Source of the DNA: Collybia mongolica
Lineage: Eukaryota; Basidiomycota; Agaricomycetes; Agaricales; Clitocybaceae
Direction of reading: 5' to 3'
Assembly (NCBI GenBank): GCA_013420905.1
Contig: JAAXNY010000020.1
Span: 124,001-188,000, forward strand
DNA length: 64,000 nt
Both the position numbers and the translations under genes were made by a program. The first letter of the stretch is position 1. Every line of letters begins with the position of its first letter. The notes below the pieces were generated by a model. That model was not told the origin of the DNA, did no database searches, and saw only the letters and a list, made by a program, of their open reading frames with translations. Below, in pieces: positions 7,191 to 20,950 of the stretch.

Positions 7191-8463
7191 AATGAGATTG
7201 ATGATATATAGGACTGGGTTTGGCGGTTCAAGTGCCATTATGCTGGTTCATGGCAATGTTCTGAATATAGGTTTCTTTCGATTTTTCAATCATTTCGAGG
7301 GATGGATCCCACTGTCATATTCCTATGATTTCTGCAAATATTGTAATGGGTTGCTGTTGGTACATACTGAGTGGCACAATTCCGGCCAATTGAGGGAGGT
7401 TGCAGAGGAGAGAGAATGGTATTGAGGAGAGGGTATCAATGATAGGGAACGGCTCCAGATTATCAATACCAGGACAATTCTTGTGAGAATACGTGCAATA
7501 TTTTGCTGCCACATCGTCACCCTCATTTCTTATGAAAGGGGTCAAGCTGTCCATGGCGTGGCAGCAATGTTTTGTGACTGGCACTTCTCCGAAGACCTGA
7601 AGTACTGGTGAGGTATATTATTGAGTGAATGAAGGTGAGTACTCACCTCCTCATACAATGGTCTTCCGTGATCACCTCTTCCAGCCTTCAGCTCTGAAAT
7701 CCTCCACTGATGTAGATCCTGCTCATAGGCAAGAGTTCAGGCCAGAGTATCTTCGTGAAGGAAGAGCGTCATGAGCAGCAGCCGTATGTTCATCGCTGTG
7801 TGGTGCTTGATATTGACTTGGCACTAATTAGAAATGTGATATGAAAAGAAGGCGGGATGTACTTGGTACAATATTTTCCCGTACTTCAGCGGGATGTTGG
7901 AGGTGTTGATCCCGATGTAGATTGCGGGCAAGCATTCTTGAAAGCTAATGGGCATATCTCTAGCATTATTACACAGGCTTCACTGGAAAGTTTACTTACA
8001 TGCCAATTTAGGGATCTAAGGCTACATCCAGGACGTGAAACCATTCCACGATATCCAATGTATTTATGATGACGCATCTTTTGCCGCTGTATAAAATATT
8101 CTCATCGCGTCGAGCTCCTCCTGGGGTAGCTGTGCCTGGGGTGGTCGTTCGGATTGTTGGGGTTGTCATGATGAAGAGTAAAGATATGAGTAATGGAGGC
8201 TAAATCCCGACTGGTCAGGCAGTAGTGAGAGGTCGACTTGGGTTATGGCAGGTTATGGTGTGAAACTGAACTTATGACTCCCCAAACTCTGGCAGTCAAG
8301 AAGCAAAGATCAACATCAGGCTGAGAGATGGTAAGTGAGCCTGGAGGCAGTTCAGGATTGAATTGAGTGCTCACCAGATGGAAAACAGTACTGATATGAA
8401 TCCCCACCCCCTATCTGAATGAGAAACATTGACCTATCTGATATAACCCCTTTATCTGTCCTA
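7191..8463. other. No supportable gene
   Basis: Scattered short frames on both strands (for example 7315-7584 minus and 7857-8069 plus) show no recognisable domain. The last base, A at 8463, is the left target base of the Helitron-like chain. Confidence 0.4.
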
Positions 8464-8794
8464 TACATTAAAACAGAACGGTGTTTTGACCCTGGCTAAG
8501 CTGACTAATAGAAAGATGACTAATATTACTAATCAACTTCAATGACTAATCAACTTGCCTCTGCTTTGAGTTTAGGTAAGCTCTGAGCACCTGATCGGTC
8601 ACATGACTCAAAAACAGCGCACAAATATCAATATCAATATTATTATGTATTTACCACTCTTGATATTACTTACAAGGAATAAGATTGAAATAATAATGGT
8701 GGCTATTATGTTGGAAAACTGTAGAGTTGGCAACACTGCAATAATATATTATTTACTGCCACCCTTCGTGCCGAAGGCACGGGTACTATGCTTG
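8464..8794 (+). mobile_element. Helitron-like unit 1 (short type, 331 bp)
   Basis: It starts TACATTAAAACAG and ends with hairpin CGTGCCGAAGGCACG (8767-8781), then CTTG at 8791-8794. It has no coding capacity. A second copy of identical length forms unit 9 at the other end of the chain, differing at about six positions. Confidence 0.8.
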
Positions 8795-10138
8795 TCTGTA
8801 TCTATAACATATGGGAGAGTCAAGGTGGGAATTGTTCAAGGATGAGTCAGCATTGGTCAGCATGACTAATATTTGTCAACTATTTGTAATCACTCTCAAA
8901 ACCTTCTCTTATACTCTGCTGCACATGACTGTACTGATCATGTGACCCATTCAAAACATCGGTCAATCCCACCCATATAAAATTTCTTTCTATGATCTGC
9001 TCAACCAGGGATAAGCTATAATGAGAACAACTACAAGAAAACAGTTTGCATTGCTTCACACCCCTGCTGTTGGAGTGGGTTGTAGTAGTAAGTAATTAGT
9101 ATCAAACTCAATATTTCTGCTCCTTTAGTAGTGGGTTCTGTCTCTTTACTTTTATAGCTCCAGGAGGGGCATATGAGGTGCTCTTGCAGGTTTTCTACCT
9201 GACCCCATACAGGCATGGATATCTGTCCAGCCTGCAGGAACCTGTGGGAAACAGGCCTTGGGGCCCCAAAAGTAAGGCCCCACTCAAAATAATGAAAAGA
9301 TTCTATTGTGATCATAATTTGTTCCTTGGCCATTCTGAAATTTGTAGGGTTATGGATCTATGGGCCAGGGGAACAATATCTGTTGGAATACCTGTGCCAT
9401 GGGCTAATTACTGTAAAAAATGATACAGGCACAGAAAAATGGTAGTTGATAGTTGTAAATGCAACCCTATGTCATGCTGTGCTAACCCAAGGTTGGCCAG
9501 AATGAGATCTTGCAGAGGAACCCAAAGGCATATTTAAGAAGTCAGGTAAAGGCTGTCTACTTACCTAGCAGAGGGGAATACTCTGCAGATCCTCTGCTAG
9601 GGGTCTCTATTCTATATACTTATTCTAGATAATAGCTATGAAGTCCCATTGTTGCCATGTGGCTCAGGGTTACAAGGTACATATATTATATACAAGCAAG
9701 TCATTGTGCTCTGATGGTTATGCAAAAGTAGGCATAAGGGTGGCAATACTGGGCATCACAATAGCAGGGTGTACAGGTGCCAATGGCAAGAGGTGCTAAT
9801 AGCAGAGGTGTGCTGACAGCAGGGTATCTGATGAACAATGAGTGAATGTTGATATTGAGAGTTGTGATAGTATATTATTGGGCATTCCCTCTACAATATT
9901 ATGGAAGGTACATATAATTCCACAGGTGTTGGGGATCTGACCCACACTCTAACCCAGGTGAGTCTAATTTCAAGCACTCATGGCAAGTAATTGCCAAGAT
10001 CACAGGTAGTTAACAGATATAAATGTTACATACAATATGAGCACCTCAATGTCTACCCATAGATTAGTAGTAGCTCATATACTTTCCTTCAAGCAAGCAT
10101 TGTATGGCACCGTGCCGAAGGCACGGGTCTTTAGCTTG
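8795..10138 (+). mobile_element. Helitron-like unit 2 (1344 bp)
   Basis: It begins TCTGTATCTATA right after unit 1's CTTG and ends with hairpin CCGTGCCGAAGGCACGG (10110-10126) and CTTG (10135-10138). An internal 11-bp inverted pair, CCTAGCAGAGG/CCTCTGCTAGG, lies at 9564-9601. No coding sequence is recognised. Its last 130 bp are shared with unit 8. Confidence 0.65.
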
Positions 10139-12518
10139 TATATTAAAGAGTACCAGGAACGTGGGAATTGATTGTGACTAATCCTGACTAAGCGCTGACT
10201 AAGTCTGACAAAGCAGCAGAAAAGTTGTCTTTTAAGTAGAGTGCTGACTAAGGATGACAAAGCCAAGAAAAATTGTCAAAGTCACATGCTATGTCACCTG
10301 TTCAAGTCACCTGCTCAAATCACCTGCTCAAACCAGCTCAAGTCACCTGCCTCAAAACACAACATAACCATCACATCACATGACCTCTAAAGCATATCAA
10401 AGTCAATAAATATTAACCCATTTGTATGCACACTTCTTTATAAATTTCAGATGCTCAAACTAAATTATAAAAAATACATTCAAATGGTGCTATTGCTCAT
10501 GAAATTACAGGCAGACAAAAATCAAAATGTCTTCACCTGACCAATTCTGATATAAAGCCTTTAATGCACACAATATATTCCAACATTACAAACCCTATTT
10601 TAATTACATCATATTACATTATATTGATTTTAAAAAAATGTTCTATCCAGGTCATAATCACATGCTAAGTCACCTGCCTCACAACAACATAATCACCTGC
10701 TTTACAGCACACTATAACCCCAACTAAAGTGGACTAAAGTCAACAAATATTATCTGTTATCCTTAACTTTTTTGTGTATGTATACTGCCTGACAAGTTTC
10801 AGATGCTCAACTAAAACAGTAAAATAGGTATTTAAATGGTGCTACTGCTTATAAATTACAAATCAAGAATATACAGACAAACATGGAAATGTCTTTACCT
10901 AATCAATTCTGCCATCAAGCCTTTAATCAATGCAATGTATTCTAAGATTACAAATCCTGTTTTAAAACCTGATAATATTTTATACACCAAAAAAAACTCT
11001 CTTTCCACCAAATACAATGATATAAACTCTTCCAAAATACTGGAAATAATTTCTGGAAATGCTAAGGTATGCATACCACATTATAAATTCTATTGCACAT
11101 GACAGAATTGATGGAGCCACAGCAATGTACTCCAATTGAATACTTGAACTCTATCCATGGATCAGAGCTATCTCTTTCTAAGCTTATATTTAAAGCAACT
11201 GGAATCCAGTGCAAATGATCAAGTGAAATAGTGTAATTGATTAAAAGAAAATATAATGGGTAGAAACACTGATTTCAAGAATTTGAGAAGAACTGATATT
11301 TGTTAAATTAAGCCAATGATAATTACCTTTTCATGATGGATTATGTATGGCAACTAACAAATGTGGTAGGATAATAACTATACAATGTTGAATCTGACCT
11401 TAGACTATTTGTATCCACTGTTTGAGTTACAGTTCAACCAAGTTATATACATATACATGATTGTTTATCTGCAGAGGGGAAATGTAGACATAATTATAGC
11501 AATAACACAAATATGGATGTGCCAGGGTAGGTTTGTAAAACCAGGAAGACAGGGTAAAATAGGATATGACAATAATGCATAAGGTGGTTGACTAACTGCT
11601 GAATTGGAATAGTAAAGGGCCATATCTGGAAGCAGGACTGAGGTGATATTATGAAAATTGTAGGTATAGGAGGTAATAGGGCTCTAACCATTTAGTATTT
11701 GTTTATAAAATGGTGTAAACTAAACATTTACCAAATAACAAGAAGGCCATTGAGGACAGAAAGACTCAAATAAACATTAATGCATCAAGTAAATGGTAAT
11801 GGACCATCAGCAAACAAATGATGAAGTTCGAAAAAATCTAAGAGGCCTTGGCTGTCTTTCATATAAGTACATATCTCCTTAACAGCCATGGAATGGATAT
11901 TTATAAAATATGCCAGTTGTCATTTGCCAATTATAGGAAGCTATATGATGTAAATATGGATACAGCATGCTGTAGTATCACCATCCCACCACTCATAGTG
12001 ACCATTTACTACTGTTTGTTTACCAATTGTTTAGCATTTAGATAGGTGGTGAGTAAACCAAACAGAAATGGTAAACAGTAAACAAATGAAACAATTGGAG
12101 CCTTAAGAGGTACAGAGTGATTATAAATATAATATGGGCTATATGAATGAGATAGAAATAAAAATGGTAAGCTGAGTGTGTATGTTTTGTTTCCATGCAT
12201 GTGCAGTAGGGTGCAATAGGATACAATAGAGTAACTGGCTCCAAAGAAGTTCCAAGATAAAGACAAGGATTGAGGTGCAACTGAAGTGATACAATGTGGG
12301 GTTTTATAGGATATTGGGTTATATAAAATGCTGGATACAGTATATAAGATTCCTCTATGAAAGTGAAGGCACTGACTAAATTTTTGAGATGTGATGTGTG
12401 ATAAAAATTCTGGAATGAAGGGGGGGTCTGGGGGCAGAGCCTCCAGCAAGCCAAGGATTTGTGATGAACCATGGCCCAGTACCACAGTGCCGTGGCATAG
12501 CCATGGGCCATAAGCTTG
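10139..12518 (+). mobile_element. Helitron-like unit 3 (2380 bp)
   Basis: It starts TATATTAAAGAGTACC, followed by CTGACTAAG repeats and a TCAAGTCACCTGC tandem tract. It ends with an imperfect subterminal palindrome (12428-12446), then a terminal hairpin around 12489-12505 and CTTG (12515-12518). It contains two decayed copies of a helicase segment. Unit 6 has exactly the same length and the same internal order. Confidence 0.75.
10798..11180 (+). pseudogene. Decayed Helitron helicase fragment in unit 3
   Basis: Translation shows a degraded version of the segment preserved in units 5 and 7: NPVLKPDN, then YNDINSSKILEI (matching GDVDSLNKKVLDM), then IEYLNSI...SLSKL (matching VEYLNVI...PLSKL). 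It is full of stops and shifts. A second, more degraded module lies just upstream at about 10446-10620. Confidence 0.6.
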
Positions 12519-13686
12519 TCCTATACATTAAAACAGAATGTCTGTCCTATACATTAAAACATCTGGGTGTTTTGACCCTAGCTTTGCTGACCTAATATTT
12601 GCTTTGCTGACTAAAAATATGACTAATCAGAGAAAGATGACAAATATTGAACGGATGCCTGAAACAGAAGCAGGCGGCATTTGCCATCAGACACATCATT
12701 TAGTCATGTGACCAAAAAGCGTCCAGCATCAAATTTGTATAATGTGTGCCCTCAGGCTTCTAACTACTAGCTCATGTGTCCATTTGTTGCTGGGATCTGG
12801 AAGTGGTGTCATTCTTCTTTCTCCCCTCTCATAGAACATTTTGGAAAGGTCAAATCAATTTGATAAAGTTTCATGGCCATAGCCTGTTGATTACAAAATA
12901 CTTATCAAAGCATGCATAATAGTTTTGAGGCTCAATTGAGGTATACAGGGAAATATATAAGATTGTGTGCAATCTAGAGAGTGCCTTGATTGTAGGCAGG
13001 AACATATCACATGTATTTGTTATGAGACTAATTACCATCTCATTTACAAAACTAAAAGCCATAATCATGATTCATTATCTATCCTTGCCACAGTAAAAAT
13101 AAGAATGAAGCAGATGAATCTCTCCTGAAATACCAAGGTATTTTGTTGTAAATTTCAATTTTACAGTTGTTCCTTAGAGTGGTATGAGGCCCCTGGAAGC
13201 TCCCCTATATATTTGGAGAAGTTTTTCACCAGAATGGGCCTTAAATCCACTATATGGGCCAGGGCTTATATCATAAAACATATTTTAGTGCTTTTTGAGG
13301 ATTGTGAATCTGGGCTCTGGCTCTTCTCAAACTGAAACAGATCAAATGAACCAGTGACCCATTACTTGGAAAAAATCCTCAAGGAAGGTCTGAAATCTGC
13401 TATATTTAGGCCAAGGATTTTGCCAGAATCACTCAGATCTACTATTTTGGGCTGGGAAAATCATCATTTTGGGAGTCTCAAATCCACAAAAAATTCCCAA
13501 ACATATAGGGGAGCTTCCAGGGGCCTGTGGTATGGGGGAAAAAAAACAATGCCATTTGTTGCCAACTGCAATCCACACTCCAGTGACCATATATCTGGAA
13601 CTCCCTTTATATATTTGTGTAAATATTATTTGCCCTCAGAATGGACAAGCCACCCCCCCGTGCCAAAGGCACGGGTAGTAAGCTTG
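12519..13686 (+). mobile_element. Helitron-like unit 4 (1168 bp, includes a MITE)
   Basis: Its 5' tip TCCTATACATTAAAAC is present twice (12519 and about 12545), 26 bp apart, as if one 5' end had landed on another. It ends with hairpin CCGTGCCAAAGGCACGG (13658-13674) and CTTG (13683-13686). A 340-bp MITE with its duplication accounts for 348 bp. No coding content is seen. Confidence 0.7.
13187..13526. mobile_element. hAT-like MITE, 340 bp, nested in unit 4
   Basis: Inverted repeats of about 30 bp begin AGGCCCCTGGAAGCTCCCC at 13187 and mirror at 13526, with the outer 24 bp perfect. The 8-bp duplication GTGGTATG flanks it at 13179-13186 and 13527-13534. There is no transposase; the 8-bp duplication points to a hAT-type mobiliser. 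It inserted after unit 4 was in place. Confidence 0.88.
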
Positions 13687-15697
13687 TCTGTCTATATTAA
13701 AGTACTACGGCCGTGTGAATTTGATTGTGACTAATCCTGACTAAGCGCTGACTAAGTCTGACAAAGCAGCAAAAAAGTTGTCTTTTAAGTAGAGTGCTGA
13801 CTAAGGATGACAAAGCAGGAAAATTGTTGAAGTCACATGCCATGTCACCTGCTCAAGTCACCTGCTTAAGTCACCCTTAATTACCACAATAAATTCTAAC
13901 ATTACATATCTTGCTTTAAAAACTAATACATTATATATTTAAAAAAAAATCTATCCAGGTAACATGCTAAGACACATACTAATCACCTGATCTGCAACAC
14001 CACATCACATGACCTCCAAAGCGGACTAAGTCAACAAATAACAAACAATACCTATTAACCTTAAGCTGCCTCATAAATTTCAGATGCTCAAACTGGAAAA
14101 AAAAAAGTATTTAAATGGTGCCACTACCCATAAAATTACAAATCAAAGTAGAACATGGAAAGCATGCAGATAAAAATGGAAATGAGTTTATCTGAGCAAT
14201 TTGGTTGTTAATCCATAAATTAACATAAAATGTTCTAACACTACAAAGCCTGCTTTAAAATCTGATACATTCTATTTTGAAAAAATTACTCTCTGTCTAA
14301 CCCTATCTTTAGAACAATAGGAATCCAGTGCAAATGAGTAAGGGAAATAGTAATACATGGTTGAGAGAAATATTATAGGTAGAAGAAACATTGATTCCAA
14401 GGATTTTGAATAGAGCTGATCCCTATCAAATTAGAGCAATAACAACTAACTTTTCACATAATAATTTGCAAATGTGATAGGAATTGACTACACAATATTG
14501 GACAGCATTGTTGCCTTTGATGCAGTCAACTGGCTATTCCAAAATATTAGAGGAGATGATAGAGCCTTTGGTAGGCTAATTATAGTATTTGATGGTGCAG
14601 ACTGTGGGTGCCTGTCTTATGCACTCCCCACTGTGGGGATGAACTTCAAATACTCAAACTAAAGAAAAATCTGTACTTATATGGTGTTACTAATGATAAA
14701 ATGAGACTTTCCAAATGGCAAATTGAAATTGGCCATGGGAAGCTTACAGATGGCAATGGAAATGTCACCTTACCTAGCCACTTTTATGATGCTGAGAATA
14801 CTGTGGAGTCTCTAACTGACACATTATATCCTGACATTGGAAACCCTGTTCTAAAACCTGATACATTTTACCCTGAGAGAGCTATTCTTTCTGCCAGAAA
14901 TGGTGATGTTGACTCTCTCAATAAAAAAGTACTGGATATGTTTCCTGGAGATGGCAAGATGTACCACAGTGCAGATTGTATTGCATATGAAGGAATTGAT
15001 GGAGCTGAAGCAATATACCCTGTTGAATATCTGAATGTTATCAATGTATCAGGGCTACCTCTATCTATGTAAGCTAACTTAAAAAGTGGGGTGCCATGTA
15101 ATGATATTGCACAATTTGAACACAGTTGATAGTCTTTACAATGGGTCAAGGGAAATAATAACATGGACAAGCAACCATATTGTAGAAGTATAGTTAATTG
15201 GGAGGCAAAATGATAGGCATAAAGAAATTATCTCAAGATTCCAAATGATGCCATCTAATAGCCTGATAGCTTTTAAATTGGCATGGTCACAACTGCTTTT
15301 ATAGCTGGGATTCTGTATGACAATTAACCAATATCAAGGGCACTGATTACACCAAGTTGGACTTGACTTTAGATCTCCTGTAGTTATACATGGGCAGTTT
15401 TATATTGTGATTTCACAGGTAATATTGGTACATGGAATCAAAGCTATGATACCAAATACTGTAGACAATAGGGTCACTTTAACAGTAAAGATGTTCCTTT
15501 GGAGTAGAAGTATTATATGGATTATGATTTGAATAGGGAAAAAAGCCTACATCCAAAATATTGAAATTGAACATAGAATAAAGTATTGAGACTAAGATGG
15601 GGGTCTGGGGGCAGAGCCCCCAGCAAGCTGAAGGTTACGTGGTAGAGCCATGGGTGAGTGTAGCAGTGCCGTGGCGTAGCCACGGGCCATAAGCTTG
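13687..15697 (+). mobile_element. Helitron-like unit 5 (2011 bp)
   Basis: It starts TCTGTCTATATTAAAG, followed by CTGACTAAG and CACCTG repeats. It contains a well-preserved helicase C-terminal fragment. The perfect subterminal palindrome CTGGGGGCAGAGCCCCCAG lies at 15605-15623, the terminal hairpin at about 15667-15684 and CTTG at 15694-15697. It is closely related to unit 7. Confidence 0.78.
14638..15490 (+). pseudogene. Helitron (RepHel) helicase C-terminal fragment, unit 5
   Basis: The frame ending at 15072 contains GDVDSLNKKVLDMFPGDGK and YPVEYLNVINVSGLPLS, a signature block of the SF1/Pif1-like helicase of Helitrons. A 4-bp insertion near 15066, relative to unit 7, shifts the frame. Decayed sequence continues to about 15490. 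There is no Rep nuclease domain and no N-terminal helicase motif, so it is non-functional. Confidence 0.85.
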
Positions 15698-15839
15698 TCT
15701 GTCTATATTAAAGTACTACGGCCGTGTGAATTTGATTGTGACTAATCCTGACTAAGCGCTGACTAAGTCTGACAAAGCAGCAAAAAAAGTTGTCTTATAA
15801 GTAGAGTGCTGACTAAGGATGACAAAGCAAGAAAATTTG

Positions 15840-15935
15840 TTAAAGTCACCTGCTTAAGTCACCTGCTCAAGTCACCTGCTCAAGTCACCTGCTCAAGTCA
15901 CCTGCTCAAATCACCTGCTCAAACCAGCTCAAATC
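15840..15935 (+). repeat. 13-bp tandem repeat, TCAAGTCACCTGC type
   Basis: About seven to eight near-identical copies of TCAAGTCACCTGC sit in the 5' part of unit 6. Units 3, 5 and 7 carry shorter versions at the corresponding place (about 10290-10350, 13830-13875 and 18210-18320). Copy number varies between units. Confidence 0.85.
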
Positions 15936-16384
15936 ACCTGCCTCAAAACACAACATAACCAGCACGTCACATGACCTCCAAAGCGCACAAAATCAATAAA
16001 TATTAACCCATCTGTATGCACACTTCCTCATAAATTTCAGATGCTCAAACTATTTTATAAAAAATACATTCAAATGGTGCTACTGCTCATGAAATTACAG
16101 ACAGACAAAAATGAAAATGACTTTTACCTGACCAATTCTGCTATAAAACCTTTAATTCACACAATATATTCCAAACAAACCCTATTTTAATTACATCATA
16201 TTGCATTATATTTATTTAAAAAAAATGTTCTATCCAGGTCATGATCACATGCTAAGTCACCTGCCTCAAAACAAACATAATCACCTGCTTTACAGCACAG
16301 GATAACCACAACTAAAGTGGACTAAAGTCAACAAATATTATCTGTTATCCTTAACTTATTTGTGTGTATATCCTGCCTGACAAG

Positions 16385-16760
16385 TTTCAGATGCTCAACT
16401 AAAACAGTAAAATAGGTATTTAAATGGTGCTACTGCTTATAAAATTACAAATCAAGAATATACAGACAAACATGGAAATGACTTTACCTAATCAATTCTG
16501 CCATCAAGCCTTTAATCAATGCAATGTATTCTGAGATTACAAATCCTGTTTTAAAACCTGATACATTATACACTAAAAAAAACTCTCTTTCCACCAAATA
16601 CAATGATATAAACTCTTCCAAAATACTGGAAATAATTCCTGGAAATGCTAAGGTATGCATACCACATTATAAATTCTGTTGCATATGACAGAATTGATGG
16701 AGCCACAGCATGTACCCCAATGAATACTTGAGCCCTATTCATGGATCATCACTACCTCTT
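16385..16760 (+). pseudogene. Decayed Helitron helicase fragment in unit 6
   Basis: This corresponds to the unit 3 fragment and shares its stops and deletions, so the decay preceded the duplication. It again shows blocks equivalent to NPVLKPD, the SLNKKVLDM region and EYLN. Confidence 0.55.
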
Positions 16761-18077
16761 TCTAAGCTTATATTTAAAGCAACTGGAATCCAATGCAAAT
16801 CATTAAGTGAAATAGTATAATTGATTTCAAGAACTTTGAATAGAACTGATATTTGTTAAATTAAGCCAATATCAATCACCCTTCTATGCTGGATTATGTA
16901 TGGCAACTAACAAATATGGTAGGACAATAACTACACAATGTTGGATCTGACCTTAGACTATTTGTATCCACAGTTTTGGGTTACAGTTCAACCAAGTTAT
17001 GTATATATGATTGTTTATCTACAGAGGGGAAATATGGACATAAATATAGCAATAACACAAATATGGATGTGCAAGAGTAGGTTTGTAAGATCTGGAAGAC
17101 AGGATAAAATAGGATATGACAATAATGCATAGGGTGGTTGACTAACTGCTGGATTGGAATAATAAAGGGCCATATCTGGAAGCAGGACTGAGGTAATATT
17201 ATGAAAATTGTAAGTACAACAAAGCCCCAACCATTTACATAGTTTTTTTTATAAAATGGTGTAAACTGAACACTTACCAAATGATAAGAAGGCCATTGAG
17301 GACAAGAAGCACTCAGATAAACTTTAATGCATCAAGTAGATGGTAATGGACCATTTGCAAACAAATGATGAAGTTTGAACCAAATCTAAGAGGCCTTGGC
17401 TGGGTTGTCTTTTATATAAGTACATACCTCCTTAACAGTTGTGTTTTGACAGCCATAGTATGGTTATTCATAACATATGCCATTTGCCAATTACAGGAAG
17501 CTATATAATATAAGTATGGATACAGCATGCTGTAGTATCACCACCCCACCACTCATGGTGACCATTTACTACTGTTTGTTTACCAATTGTTTAGCATTTA
17601 GATAGGTGGTGAGTAAACTAAACAGAAATGGTAAACAGTAAACAAATGAAACAATTGGAGCCTTAAGAGGTAAATAGTGATTATAAATATGATATAGGCT
17701 ATATGAATGAGATAGAAATAAAAATGGTAAGCTGAGAGTGTATGTTTTGTTTCCAGGCATGTGCAGTAGGGTGCAATAGGATACAATAGAGTAACTGGCT
17801 CCAAAGAAGTTTTAAGATAAAGACAAGGATTGGGGTGCAACTGAAATGCTACAATGTGGGGTTTTATAGGATATTGGGTTATATAATATGCTGGATACAG
17901 TATATAGATTTCTCTATGAAAGTGAAGGCACTGACTAAAATTTTGAGATGTGATGTGTGATAAAAATTCTGAAATGAAGGGGGGGTCTGGGGGCAGAGCC
18001 CCCAGCAAGCCAAGGATTTGTGATGAACCATGGCCCAGTGCCACAGTGCCGTGGCGTAGCCATGGGCCCTAAGCTTG

Positions 18078-20406
18078 TATATATTAAAGTACCAGGAACA
18101 TGGGAATTGATTGTGACTAATCCTGACTAAGCGCTGACTAAGTCTGACAAAGCAGCAGAAAAGTTGTCTTTAAGTAGAGTGCTGACTAAGGATGACAAAG
18201 CAAGAAAAGTTGTTAAAGTCACATGCTATGTCACCTGCTCAAGTCACCTGCTTAAATCACCTGCTCTAATCACCTGCTCAAATCACCTGTTCAAACCAGC
18301 TCAAGTCACCTGCCTCAAAACACAACATGACCACCACATCACATGACCTCCAAAGCGCACAAAATCAATAAATGTTATCCCATTTGTGTGTACACTTCCT
18401 CATAAATTTCAGAAGCTCAAACTAAATTTTAAAAAATACATTTAAATGATGCTACTGCTTATAAAATTTTACAAATCAAAAGCAGACAGACAAAAATGAA
18501 AATGACTTTACCTGACCAATTCTGATGTAAAGCCTTGCATTCACACAATATATTCCAACATTACAAATCCTGATTTAATAACATCATATTACTTTATATA
18601 TTTAAATATGAAAAAAAAACATCTATCCAGGTATCACATGCTAAGTCACCTGCCTCAAAACAAAACATAATCACCTGCTTTACAACACAGGATAACCACC
18701 ACTAAAGTAGACTAAGTCAACAAATGTTATCTGTTATCCTTAACTTATTTGTGTGTATATTGTCTGACAAGATTCAGATGCTCAAACTAAAACAATAAAA
18801 TAGGCATGTAAATGGTACTACTGCTTATAAAATTACATATCAAGAGCATACAGATAAAAACTTAGAAATGACTTTTACCTGGCCAATTCTGCTATCAAGC
18901 CTTTAATCAACACAAAATAATCTAACATTACAAACCCTGTTTTGAAACCTGATACATTATTTTGAAAAAAATACTCTCTGTCTAAGCCTATGTTTAAAAC
19001 AATTAGAATCCAGTGCAAATAATCAAGAGAAATATCATGGGTAGAAGAAATATAGGTTCCAAGGATTTTAAATAGAGCTGATCTCTGTTAGATTAGAGCA
19101 CTAAAAACTTTTCACTATAGATGTATGACAATTTACAAATGTGATAGGAAATGACTATACAAAATTGGACAGCATTGTTATGTCTTTAATATAGTCAACT
19201 GGGTGTTCTGGAATATTAGAGGAGGTAGTAGAGGCTTTGGTGGGCTGACTGTAGTATTTGATAGTGACTGCCAACAAACCCTACCTGTTATCCCTAATGG
19301 TTCACATGCACAGGCTGTGGGTACCTGACTCATACACTTCCCCACTGTGGAATGAACTTCAGATACTCAAAATAAAGAAAGATATGTGCTTATATGGTGT
19401 TACTGATGATGAAGTCAAATTTGTCAAATGGCAAATTGAAGTTAGCCCTGGGAAGCTTACAGATGACAACGGAAATGTCACATTACCTGGCTGCTTACAC
19501 AGTGCTCAAAATACTGTAAAGTCTCTAATTGACACAGGATATCCTGACATTGGAAACCCTGTTCTAAAACCTAATACACTTTACTCTGAGAGAGCTATTT
19601 TTTCTGCCAGAAATGGTGATGTTGACTCTCTCAATAAAAAAGTACTGGATATGTTTCCTGGAGATGGCAAGATGTACCACAATGCAGATTGTATTGTATA
19701 TGAAGGAATTGATGGAGCTGAAGCAATATACCCTGTTGAATATCTGAATGTTATCAATGTATCAGGGCTACCTCTATCTAAGCTAACTTAAAAAGTGGGG
19801 TGCCATGTAATGATATTGCACAATTTGAACCCAGTTGATAGTGTTTGCAATGGGTCAAGGGAAATAATAACATAGACAAGCAACTATATTGTAGAAGTAT
19901 GGTTAATTGGGAGGCAAAATGGTAGGCATAAAGAAATTATCTCAAGATTCCAAATGATGCCATCTAATAGCCTGATAGCTTTTATATTGGCATGGTCACA
20001 ACTACTTTTATAGCTGGGATTTTGTATGACAATCAACAAATGTCAAGGGTACTGATTACACCAAGTTGGACTTGACTTTAGATCTCCTGTAGTTATACAT
20101 GGGCAGTTTTATATTGTGATTTGACATGTAATATTGGTACATGGAATCAAAGCTATGATACCAAATACTGTAGACAATAGGGTCACTTTAACAGTAAAGA
20201 TGTTCCTTTGGAGTAGAAGTATTATATGGATTATGATTTGGATAGGGAAAAAAGCCTACACCTAAAATATTGAAATTGAACATAGAATAAAGTATTGAGA
20301 TGAAGATGGGGGTCTGGGGGCAGAGCCCCCAGCAAGCTGAAGGTTACGTGGTGGAGCCATGGGTGAGCATAGCGGTGCCGTGGCATAGCCACAGGCCATA
20401 AGCTTG
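18078..20406 (+). mobile_element. Helitron-like unit 7 (2329 bp)
   Basis: It starts TATATATTAAAGTACC. It carries CACCTG repeats, three copies of a helicase-derived module and the best preserved helicase fragment of the chain. Palindrome CTGGGGGCAGAGCCCCCAG lies at 20314-20332, with the terminal hairpin and CTTG at 20403-20406. Confidence 0.78.
19352..20190 (+). pseudogene. Helitron (RepHel) helicase C-terminal fragment, unit 7
   Basis: An open frame to 19791 covers NPVLKPN, GDVDSLNKKVLDMFPGDGK and VEYLNVINVSGLPLSKLT. Past the stop the same frame continues with KVGCHVMILHNLNP, CNGSREIIT, MPSNSLIAFILAW and MTINKCQGY (helicase motif VI region, normally TINKSQGQS), then QVGLDFRSPV and HGQFYI. 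Several stops interrupt it. This order matches the C-terminal third of Helitron helicases. It shows that the chain derives from an autonomous Helitron. Confidence 0.9.
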
Positions 20407-20619
20407 TTAACAGGTATAAATGTCACATACAAACAACCTCTGATATGTGAGCACCTCAATGTATATCCATAGATTAATAGTAGCTCATATGCTTTTCCTT
20501 CAAGCATGAGCCTATCATATCAAATTAAAATTATATATATTATTTGGATTAACAATTGTGCCAATTAGTGGGATAAAGCATTGTGTGGCACCGTGCCGAA
20601 GGCACGGGTCTTTAGCTCG
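20407..20619 (+). mobile_element. Helitron-like unit 8 (213 bp, 5' truncated)
   Basis: It matches the last part of unit 2 (10010-10138) but has extra internal segments. It begins in mid-element at TTAACAGG and ends with hairpin CCGTGCCGAAGGCACGG (20591-20607) and CTCG (20616-20619). No 5' tip is present. Confidence 0.65.
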
Positions 20620-20950
20620 TACATTAAAACAGAATGGTGTTTTGACCCTGGCTAAGCTGACTAATAGAAAGATGACTAATATTACTAATCAACTTCAATG
20701 ACTAATCAACTTGCCTCTGCTTCGAGTTTAGGTAAGCTCTGAGCACCTGATCGGTCACATGACTCAAAAACGGCGCACAAATATCAATATCAATATTATT
20801 ATGTATTTACCACTCTTGATATTACTTATAAGGAATAACATTGAAATAATAATGGTGGCTATTATGTTGGAAAACTGTAGAGTTGGCAACACTGCAATAA
20901 AATATTATTTACTGCCACCCTTCGTGCCGAAGGCACGGGTACTATGCTTG
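20620..20950 (+). mobile_element. Helitron-like unit 9 (331 bp, copy of unit 1)
   Basis: It starts TACATTAAAACAG directly after unit 8's CTCG and ends in CTTG at 20947-20950, after the same hairpin as unit 1. About 98 percent identity to unit 1 over the same 331 bp indicates recent movement or duplication. The flanking T at 20951 begins non-repetitive DNA. Confidence 0.8.

Follow-up and report, generated by a model that had tools for sequence, protein, structure and literature searches.

The window analysed here, a 64,000-nt stretch of Collybia mongolica DNA (contig JAAXNY010000020.1; C20:124001-188000 in an assembly of 26 contigs and 46 Mb), carries at 8459-20950 a head-to-tail chain of Helitron-type units. 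We consider it probable that non-autonomous Helitrons, for the most part independent of one another, have stacked up here, with newcomers inserting in the same orientation as the resident, at N/T (a slash marks a joint throughout) inside its 5' terminus or beside it. The units are separate elements that abut on the same strand, and at five joints clean stubs complete the 5' end of the resident; most of the joints at exact termini, we infer, arose in the same way.

The chain consists of seven units with intact 3' ends (U1-U7), followed by a 5'-truncated unit (U8) and a 5'-trimmed unit (U9), with all nine on the + strand. Their 3' ends (8794, 10138, 12518, 13686, 15697, 18077, 20406, 20619 and 20950) all read CTYG/T, with CTTG in eight, CTCG at 20619 and T as the next letter each time. 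Unit types were assigned by the 5' end: A1 TCTGTCTATATTAAAGTACTA, A2 TCTGTATATATTAAAGTACCA, B TCTGT[CA]TATTATAAAATACAG, C TCCTATACATTAAA and D TCTATAACATATGGG. The initial annotation had proposed nine units of at least four types, chained without a spacer from 8464 to 20950. The nine same-strand units, the mixture of types (A1, A2, C and D are present in the window) and the end of the chain were borne out, whereas the start had to be moved to 8459, U8 proved to be a 3' piece only, and U3, U7 and U9 are without their first six, four and five letters. Most joints do abut, but a TCTGTA stub lies between U1 and U2 and a 26-nt scrap between U3 and U4.

Read from left to right on the + strand, the chain is preceded by a TCTG stub (8455-8458), read directly, with which the 5' end of the downstream neighbour also begins; U4 copies that have an A or B unit to their right carry this stub on their left as well. 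U1 (8459-8794, type C, 336 bp) runs from TCCTATACATT through a hairpin to CTTG, and its native start is TCC, as read beside unrelated left flanks. The TCTGTA stub (8795-8800) consists of the six letters absent from the 5' end of U3, and TCTGTA plus TATATTAAAG restores an intact A2 5' end, TCTGTATATATTAAAG. U2 (8801-10138, type D) runs from TCTATAACATATGGG to CTTG, and most of its copies with a 5' end begin at query 5-8, query 7 being position 8801. U3 (10139-12518) is of type A2 without its first six letters, as judged by comparison with the genome list of A starts. The scrap (12519-12544) has 22 nt identical to a U1-type 5' end and then TCTG; since U4 copies elsewhere mostly align from query 20-30 and not from query 1, we moved the border of U4 to 12545. 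U4 (12545-13686, type C, 1142 bp) matches a copy at C8:2326279 (behind a U5-type unit) at 99.7% and a solitary copy at C6:1345218 at 99.6%, each bordered by host DNA on its right. U5 (13687-15697, type A1, 2011 bp) belongs to the youngest family seen, with many copies at 99-100% identity. U6 (15698-18077, type A1, 2380 bp) has a 98% match at C12:227100-229444, and U7 (18078-20406), of type A2 without its first four letters and thus starting at TATATATTAAAG, has a 97% match at C5:3927834-3930158. U8 (20407-20619) comprises only the 3'-terminal 213 nt of a D-type unit, begins at an internal T of that type (compare window position 10014) and ends in CTCG. U9 (20620-20950), of type C without its first five letters TCCTA, is 98% identical to U1. 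U4 also holds a 40-nt inverted repeat (92%) with arms ~260 nt apart (window 13187-13526), which is present in many U4 copies.

Each unit family recurs in the genome. We found 36 matches for U1, 72 for U2 (best 40 of 157 candidates scored) and 104 matching pieces for U4 (best 40 of 123 candidates scored), and the U5-U7 types also recur with shared borders. Apart from those moved here, the window's borders are matched by those of copies elsewhere; borders without such counterparts would have spoken against separate units. That each unit is a mobile element in its own right follows from these recurring borders and from 5.9-kb elements that have a RepHel reading frame and the same termini. An assembly artefact is an unlikely source of the chain, because the assembly has only 26 contigs for 46 Mb and like junctions occur at many loci.

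The identification of the units as Helitrons is supported by their shared termini, their hairpins and the 5.9-kb elements with the same ends. Type C starts with TCC, type D with TCTATAAC and type A with TCTGTC or TCTGTA, so the 5' TC of canonical Helitrons is present, and some residents have trimmed 5' ends where something inserted. The canonical CTRR 3' end is replaced by CTTG or CTCG at all nine window ends. A hairpin ~12 nt before the 3' end was folded in six of the nine 3' slices, with a stem of 7 or 8 bp and a 3-nt loop; a seventh slice (20376-20406) gave an interrupted stem, and CGTGCC-GAA-GGCACG is readable at U1 and U9, whose folded slices were too short for the hairpin. Seven of the nine slices thus fold as expected of canonical Helitrons, although two of the seven (12488-12518 and 18047-18077) had a fold energy no better than that of shuffles (z about -1). 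Canonical Helitrons insert at A/T; here the base to the right of the insertion is T in all 63 flanks read and in 104 of the 108 pattern-matching ends in the retrieved pieces, and the base to the left is mostly A or G, with T in a few cases. Insertion was clean, without a target-site duplication, at a host repeat (R) in L002 and L015 and at a nest of units on C8, while some insertions next to a resident have 4, 8 or 12 nt of its terminus repeated at their flanks.

A search with the PF14214 profile gave 40 matches (pieces) in the genome, 37 of them above the cut-off, and the L067 open reading frame (ORF) matched both PF14214 (1.3e-54) and PIF1 (1.7e-10) in Pfam. Two elements of ~5.9 kb, at ~C1:910027-915967 (ORF of 1722 aa) and ~C4:2187091-2193019 (ORF of 1718 aa), extend from an A1 start motif to a GCCACGGGCCGTAAGCTTG end. 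On these profile matches, they are putative autonomous partners encoding Rep (HUH) and a PIF1 helicase. No endonuclease domain, which along with subterminal inverted repeats and a T-rich or TT target would mark a Helentron (Helitron2), was among the four Pfam matches in the 1182 of ~1722 aa searched, the C-terminal part lying outside. Most RepHel relatives among the matches listed bear no species name; those with one came from Candolleomyces, Lyophyllum, Coprinopsis, Amanita, Mycena, Phanerochaete, Psilocybe and some plants. A second, more distant PF14214 group is present in long frames (1144 to 2497 aa) at C11:2096844, C11:190369, C10:2277930 and C11:2064467. The A-type units contain decayed pieces (window 11034-11184, 14827-15067 and 19540-19784) that we take, by eye, to resemble the C-terminus of a Helitron helicase.

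The right flanks of such ends elsewhere, which the initial annotation had proposed to sort into unit starts and other DNA, show that chains of this kind, thought unusual at the outset, are common in this genome. The main-type (A-type) 3' ends were sought with the pattern GCCRYRGGSYNTAAGCTTG, which had 124 matches in the genome and none in the control. We examined 104 ends, namely 100 listed ones and the window's four, with 20 others outside the census. Neighbours were taken from coordinates (within 18 nt) for 39 ends, from 50-nt right flanks for 63, and from the window itself for two (U6/U7 and U7/U8). In this census, which is approximate and splits the window's own chain, 82 of the 104 ends were directly followed by a unit start in the same orientation (A 37, C 27, D 11 and B 7), one of them after a 12-nt stub. 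The remainder were followed by a truncated D (one, in the window), by host repeat R (seven) or by other sequence (14). Among the 14 are a truncated D (C8:1278012), an opposite A 5' end (C6:1203937), sequence from inside an A unit (C4:756453) and an eight-letter piece of a C start (C8:1863452). By chance 0.0003 abutments would be expected for 104 ends (with ~300 unit starts estimated in 46 Mb). Counted from the other side, 64 A starts were located no more than 13 nt behind a CTTG (control 0), compared with 109 A starts genome-wide, and 55 of 100 listed A starts are preceded by CTTG. For orientation the fair count is that of the 63 flanks read, with 42 same-orientation 5' ends and one opposite (C6:1203937), as 82 versus one is biased by the 39 coordinate-found neighbours, which were sought on the same strand only. 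GG-type ends abut units less often: among loci L031-L060 four end in U1-type units, and 9 of the 26 others (L031, L038, L040-L043, L053, L058 and L060) abut a unit start. Two Helitron pairs, at C11:283142-286385 and C11:419379-422622, are spaced alike and share their flanks but run in opposite directions; they are probably an inverted segmental duplication, which may double-count junctions in the tallies.

A joint CTTG/TC by itself is ambiguous as to which of the two units came second, a point already made for maize (PMC2267711), but asymmetric joints tell. Five joints had clean scars, in which the newcomer lies within the first 4-11 nt of the resident and the absent letters stand on the newcomer's far side, which is why we read them as insertions into the 5' end. 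In the window, the order is TCTGTA/U2/TATATTAAAG; U3 is without TCTGTA and exactly TCTGTA stands left of U2, therefore U2 landed six letters inside U3. Locus L043 reads TCTG/U4/TATATATTAAAG, and L058 reads TCTGTA, then TCCTA/U4/TATTATAAAATAC. The fourth scar, at C8:1273038-1283331, is a nest in which a C unit is cut at CTATTA/TGTT and a D unit within it is cut at ACATA/TGGG, with B-type units in the cut. Here the C cut holds the D stub TCTATAACATA and then a B start; behind the CTTG at 1275192 comes a second B start, behind the CTTG at 1278012 the rest of D, TGGGAGAGTC, and behind the CTCG of D the rest of C, TGTTAGAAAAC; this D is also interrupted near query 1104 by ~3.8 kb of unread sequence. 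The fifth scar, at C5:2293060-2286972, has a C stub, TCCTA, followed by A1, A2 and D and then TACATTAAAACAG. D was probably there first, with A1 and A2 entering on its 5' side, because its D/C joint is the U8/U9 joint of the window. Trimming was also frequent among A2 starts behind CTTG, with the first two or four letters absent in 12 of 20 (a pair among the 12 may stem from a single event, owing to the C11 duplication).

The stub left of U4 allowed the association to be counted over many copies, taking an alignment start at or before query 23 as TCTG left of U4, a reading checked against directly read loci. TCTG was present left of U4 in L040, L041, L042, L043, L053 and L060, and absent in L033, L036, L039, L045, L046, L049, L052, L054, L056 and L057. 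Letters of the downstream neighbour's 5' end stood on the far side of U4 in 13 of the 16 copies with an A or B neighbour (seven read, six from coordinates) and in none of 24 others (Fisher, 5e-8); these 24 retain a 5' end, and the list of A starts shows no A unit beside them, but unread ones may have a B or variant A neighbour. With directly read loci only, the counts were 7/8 versus 0/10 (2.5e-4). Left out of this count were C10:2228186 and C4:1362336, which have no 5' end, and three pieces that were short and incomplete.

Several observations weigh against insertion at the 5' end as the general rule. Joints at exact termini (39 of 44 for A1 and 7 of 20 for A2) carry no direction, and three U4/A joints have no stub (L038, C12:226083 and C9:1821264). 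At the A1 residents of L040, L041, L042 and L060 TCTG stands on both sides of U4, as it does at the U1/U2 joint in the window, and in L008 a 12-nt 5' piece, TCTATATTAAAG, stands on both sides of U1. Such short repeated letters may be either doubled resident termini or a few letters duplicated by the insertion. One A start with TCTGTCTGTC at C8:3393735 has doubled terminal letters, and the alignment starts at solitary A1 copies fit a single TCTG at some and a doubled TCTG at two. Best identities elsewhere, which speak for insertion at the 5' end, are roughly youngest towards the left (U3 88%, U2 97%, U1 98%; U7 97%, U6 98%, U5 100%, U4 99.7%), but the nearest relative of U3 may have been missed, only the best 28 of 227 candidates having been scored. 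Two loci may hold leftovers of insertion at a 3' end. In L009 (C11:2386658) TAAGCTTG stands on both sides of U1, and on its left there is also a whole A-type tail; in L024 (C8:1273030) an A-type end is followed by TTGCTTG and then by a trimmed C. L040-L042 point the same way, their right-hand U5 looking younger (0-0.2%) than the U4 on the left (1.5-2.75% from the nearest U4), a comparison based on 24 U4 pieces whose sources may be unsampled. Finally, the U8/U9 joint, CTCG/TACATT, recurs at C5:2287489-2286972 (96% over 518 bp), where the right flank is not that of the window, which fits terminator bypass or a duplication.

The initial annotation had proposed CTYG/T, the 3' end of a resident plus the following T, as the apparent preferred landing site; with insertion there, chains would grow rightward. 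The T after all 63 ends read, the two possible leftovers and the younger-looking U5 copies of L040-L042 fit this, and insertion at 3' ends probably also happens. As the main route we regard it as unlikely, given the five residents whose trimmed 5' letters reappear beyond the newcomer, the U4 stub association and the finding of no 3' leftover in the 63 short flanks read; in the scan of retrieved pieces, two of the 108 ends had a second GCTTG/T close behind. Rolling-circle read-through past weak terminators, also raised at the outset, would have copied runs of units so that neighbours moved together. The shared U8/U9 joint and the order U4-A1-A2 at three C5 loci favour such a route, and U8-U9 fits a C unit with D inside that was either copied as one past the CTCG of D or duplicated. 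At U4/U5 joints, however, the neighbours travelled separately, because the right-hand U5 units in L040, L041, L042 and L060 are 99.8-100% alike while the adjacent U4 units are only 95.0-97.3% alike, and because the U4 of the window is 99.6-99.7% identical to copies whose right-hand neighbour is host DNA. Both orders, U4/U5 and U5/U4, were found. Serial insertion is supported, and read-through as the main source of the chain is improbable.

That the array is a concatemer, or an unequal-crossover duplication, of one element has very little probability. U3 and U6 are 88% alike and U5 and U7 82%, as such a duplication might leave them, but the units differ in type and each type is found in other surroundings. 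We rejected a single-element concatemer, with differing types side by side and unequal divergence at four U4/U5 pairs.

Returning to serial insertion at 5' termini, the 5.9-kb RepHel elements of the same family would mobilise the non-autonomous units, whose new copies would insert repeatedly and in the same orientation at N/T in or beside a resident's 5' terminus. The CTTG of the newcomer would then end against the first, or slightly trimmed, letters of the resident, and the cut-off 5' letters would stay on the newcomer's left. An AT-rich target alone is insufficient, because 42 same-orientation 5' ends were found against one opposite in the 63 flanks. Nicking or melting by Rep at the left terminus of the resident may provide a one-stranded landing site, which would also account for the fixed orientation. 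It is tentatively suggested, as a possibility short of an even chance, that target choice is steered by the residents' own termini, above all the left one, with an incoming circle captured on the same strand where Rep nicks or melts the 5' end and a few letters being left or duplicated. Nesting in the opposite orientation inside other units does occur (L036 and L014); in L036 (C4:1362317, - strand) a U4-type unit lies cleanly at A/T inside another U4 in opposite orientation, and brings in 19 additional letters that repeat a 5' end (TCCTATATCCTATCCTATA).

Earlier work has already proposed pairs and arrays of Helitrons as well as insertion at 5' ends (PMC2267711, PMC4289320, PMC5148889, PMC5876387, PMC3789558, PMC4067079). 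HELPO2 of Pleurotus ostreatus is similar to the elements described here in its T[C/G] 5' end, CTTG 3' end (a variant reported for HELPO2), subterminal hairpin and RepHel (~1400 aa), and probably also in its A/T target and lack of a target-site duplication; AT-rich regions that already contain Helitrons are said to be frequent landing sites of these elements (PMC4289320). The word 'tandem' is absent from the main text of that paper, where only HELPO1 has intact non-autonomous copies, and the likeness to HELPO2 is one of description. In maize, two different elements meet head to tail at a CTAG/TC joint; consecutive insertion was inferred and both orders were discussed (PMC2267711). That was one pair whose order was left open, whereas the genome studied here has many pairs, and in some of them a stub reveals the direction. 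In the work on FoHeli and Metarhizium, three tandem copies in M. acridum were read as twofold 5'-end insertion or rolling-circle replication, and short duplicated 5' termini were attributed to self-insertion (PMC5148889); those elements differ in having non-canonical, Helitron2-like ends, and the passages describing them give no genome-wide rate of abutment. Arrays in Myotis, silkworm and plants are likewise head to tail and were attributed to terminator bypass or circular intermediates (PMC4067079, PMC5876387, PMC5148889), whereas here neighbours differ in type and age. Our literature search, with most subscription journals beyond its reach, found no report of most ends of one family abutting another unit, or of ordering based on stubs. 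Tandem Helitrons are already known, and what is new is the extent of abutment and the directional scars.

Tandem Helitrons have so far been explained both as concatemers and as serial insertions, and the order of the maize pair of 2008 was left open; here dozens of junctions are available, some with readable scars, which makes it possible to measure direction, offset and orientation. If capture at the left end is true, Helitrons are each other's preferred, orientation-specific landing sites. Were it general, it would act as a self-limiting rule, with newcomers piling into old copies and not into genes, and it would also give rise to composite elements that carry several 5' ends.

Two further loci or groups of loci were observed outside the chains. 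Helitrons have repeatedly inserted into host repeat R (AACAAATAGTATATATAATTTG...), entering one AT stretch at several T positions (L002, L011, L015, the right flanks at C6:1774270, C2:463818 and C11:1525381, and others), and insertion into it in L002 and L015 is clean on both flanks read. In L054 (C11:852112, - strand), an element lies in the loop of an inverted repeat, its left flank CTTACGTTTGTCAACTATGCT and right flank AGCATAGTTGACAAACGTAAG being reverse complements.

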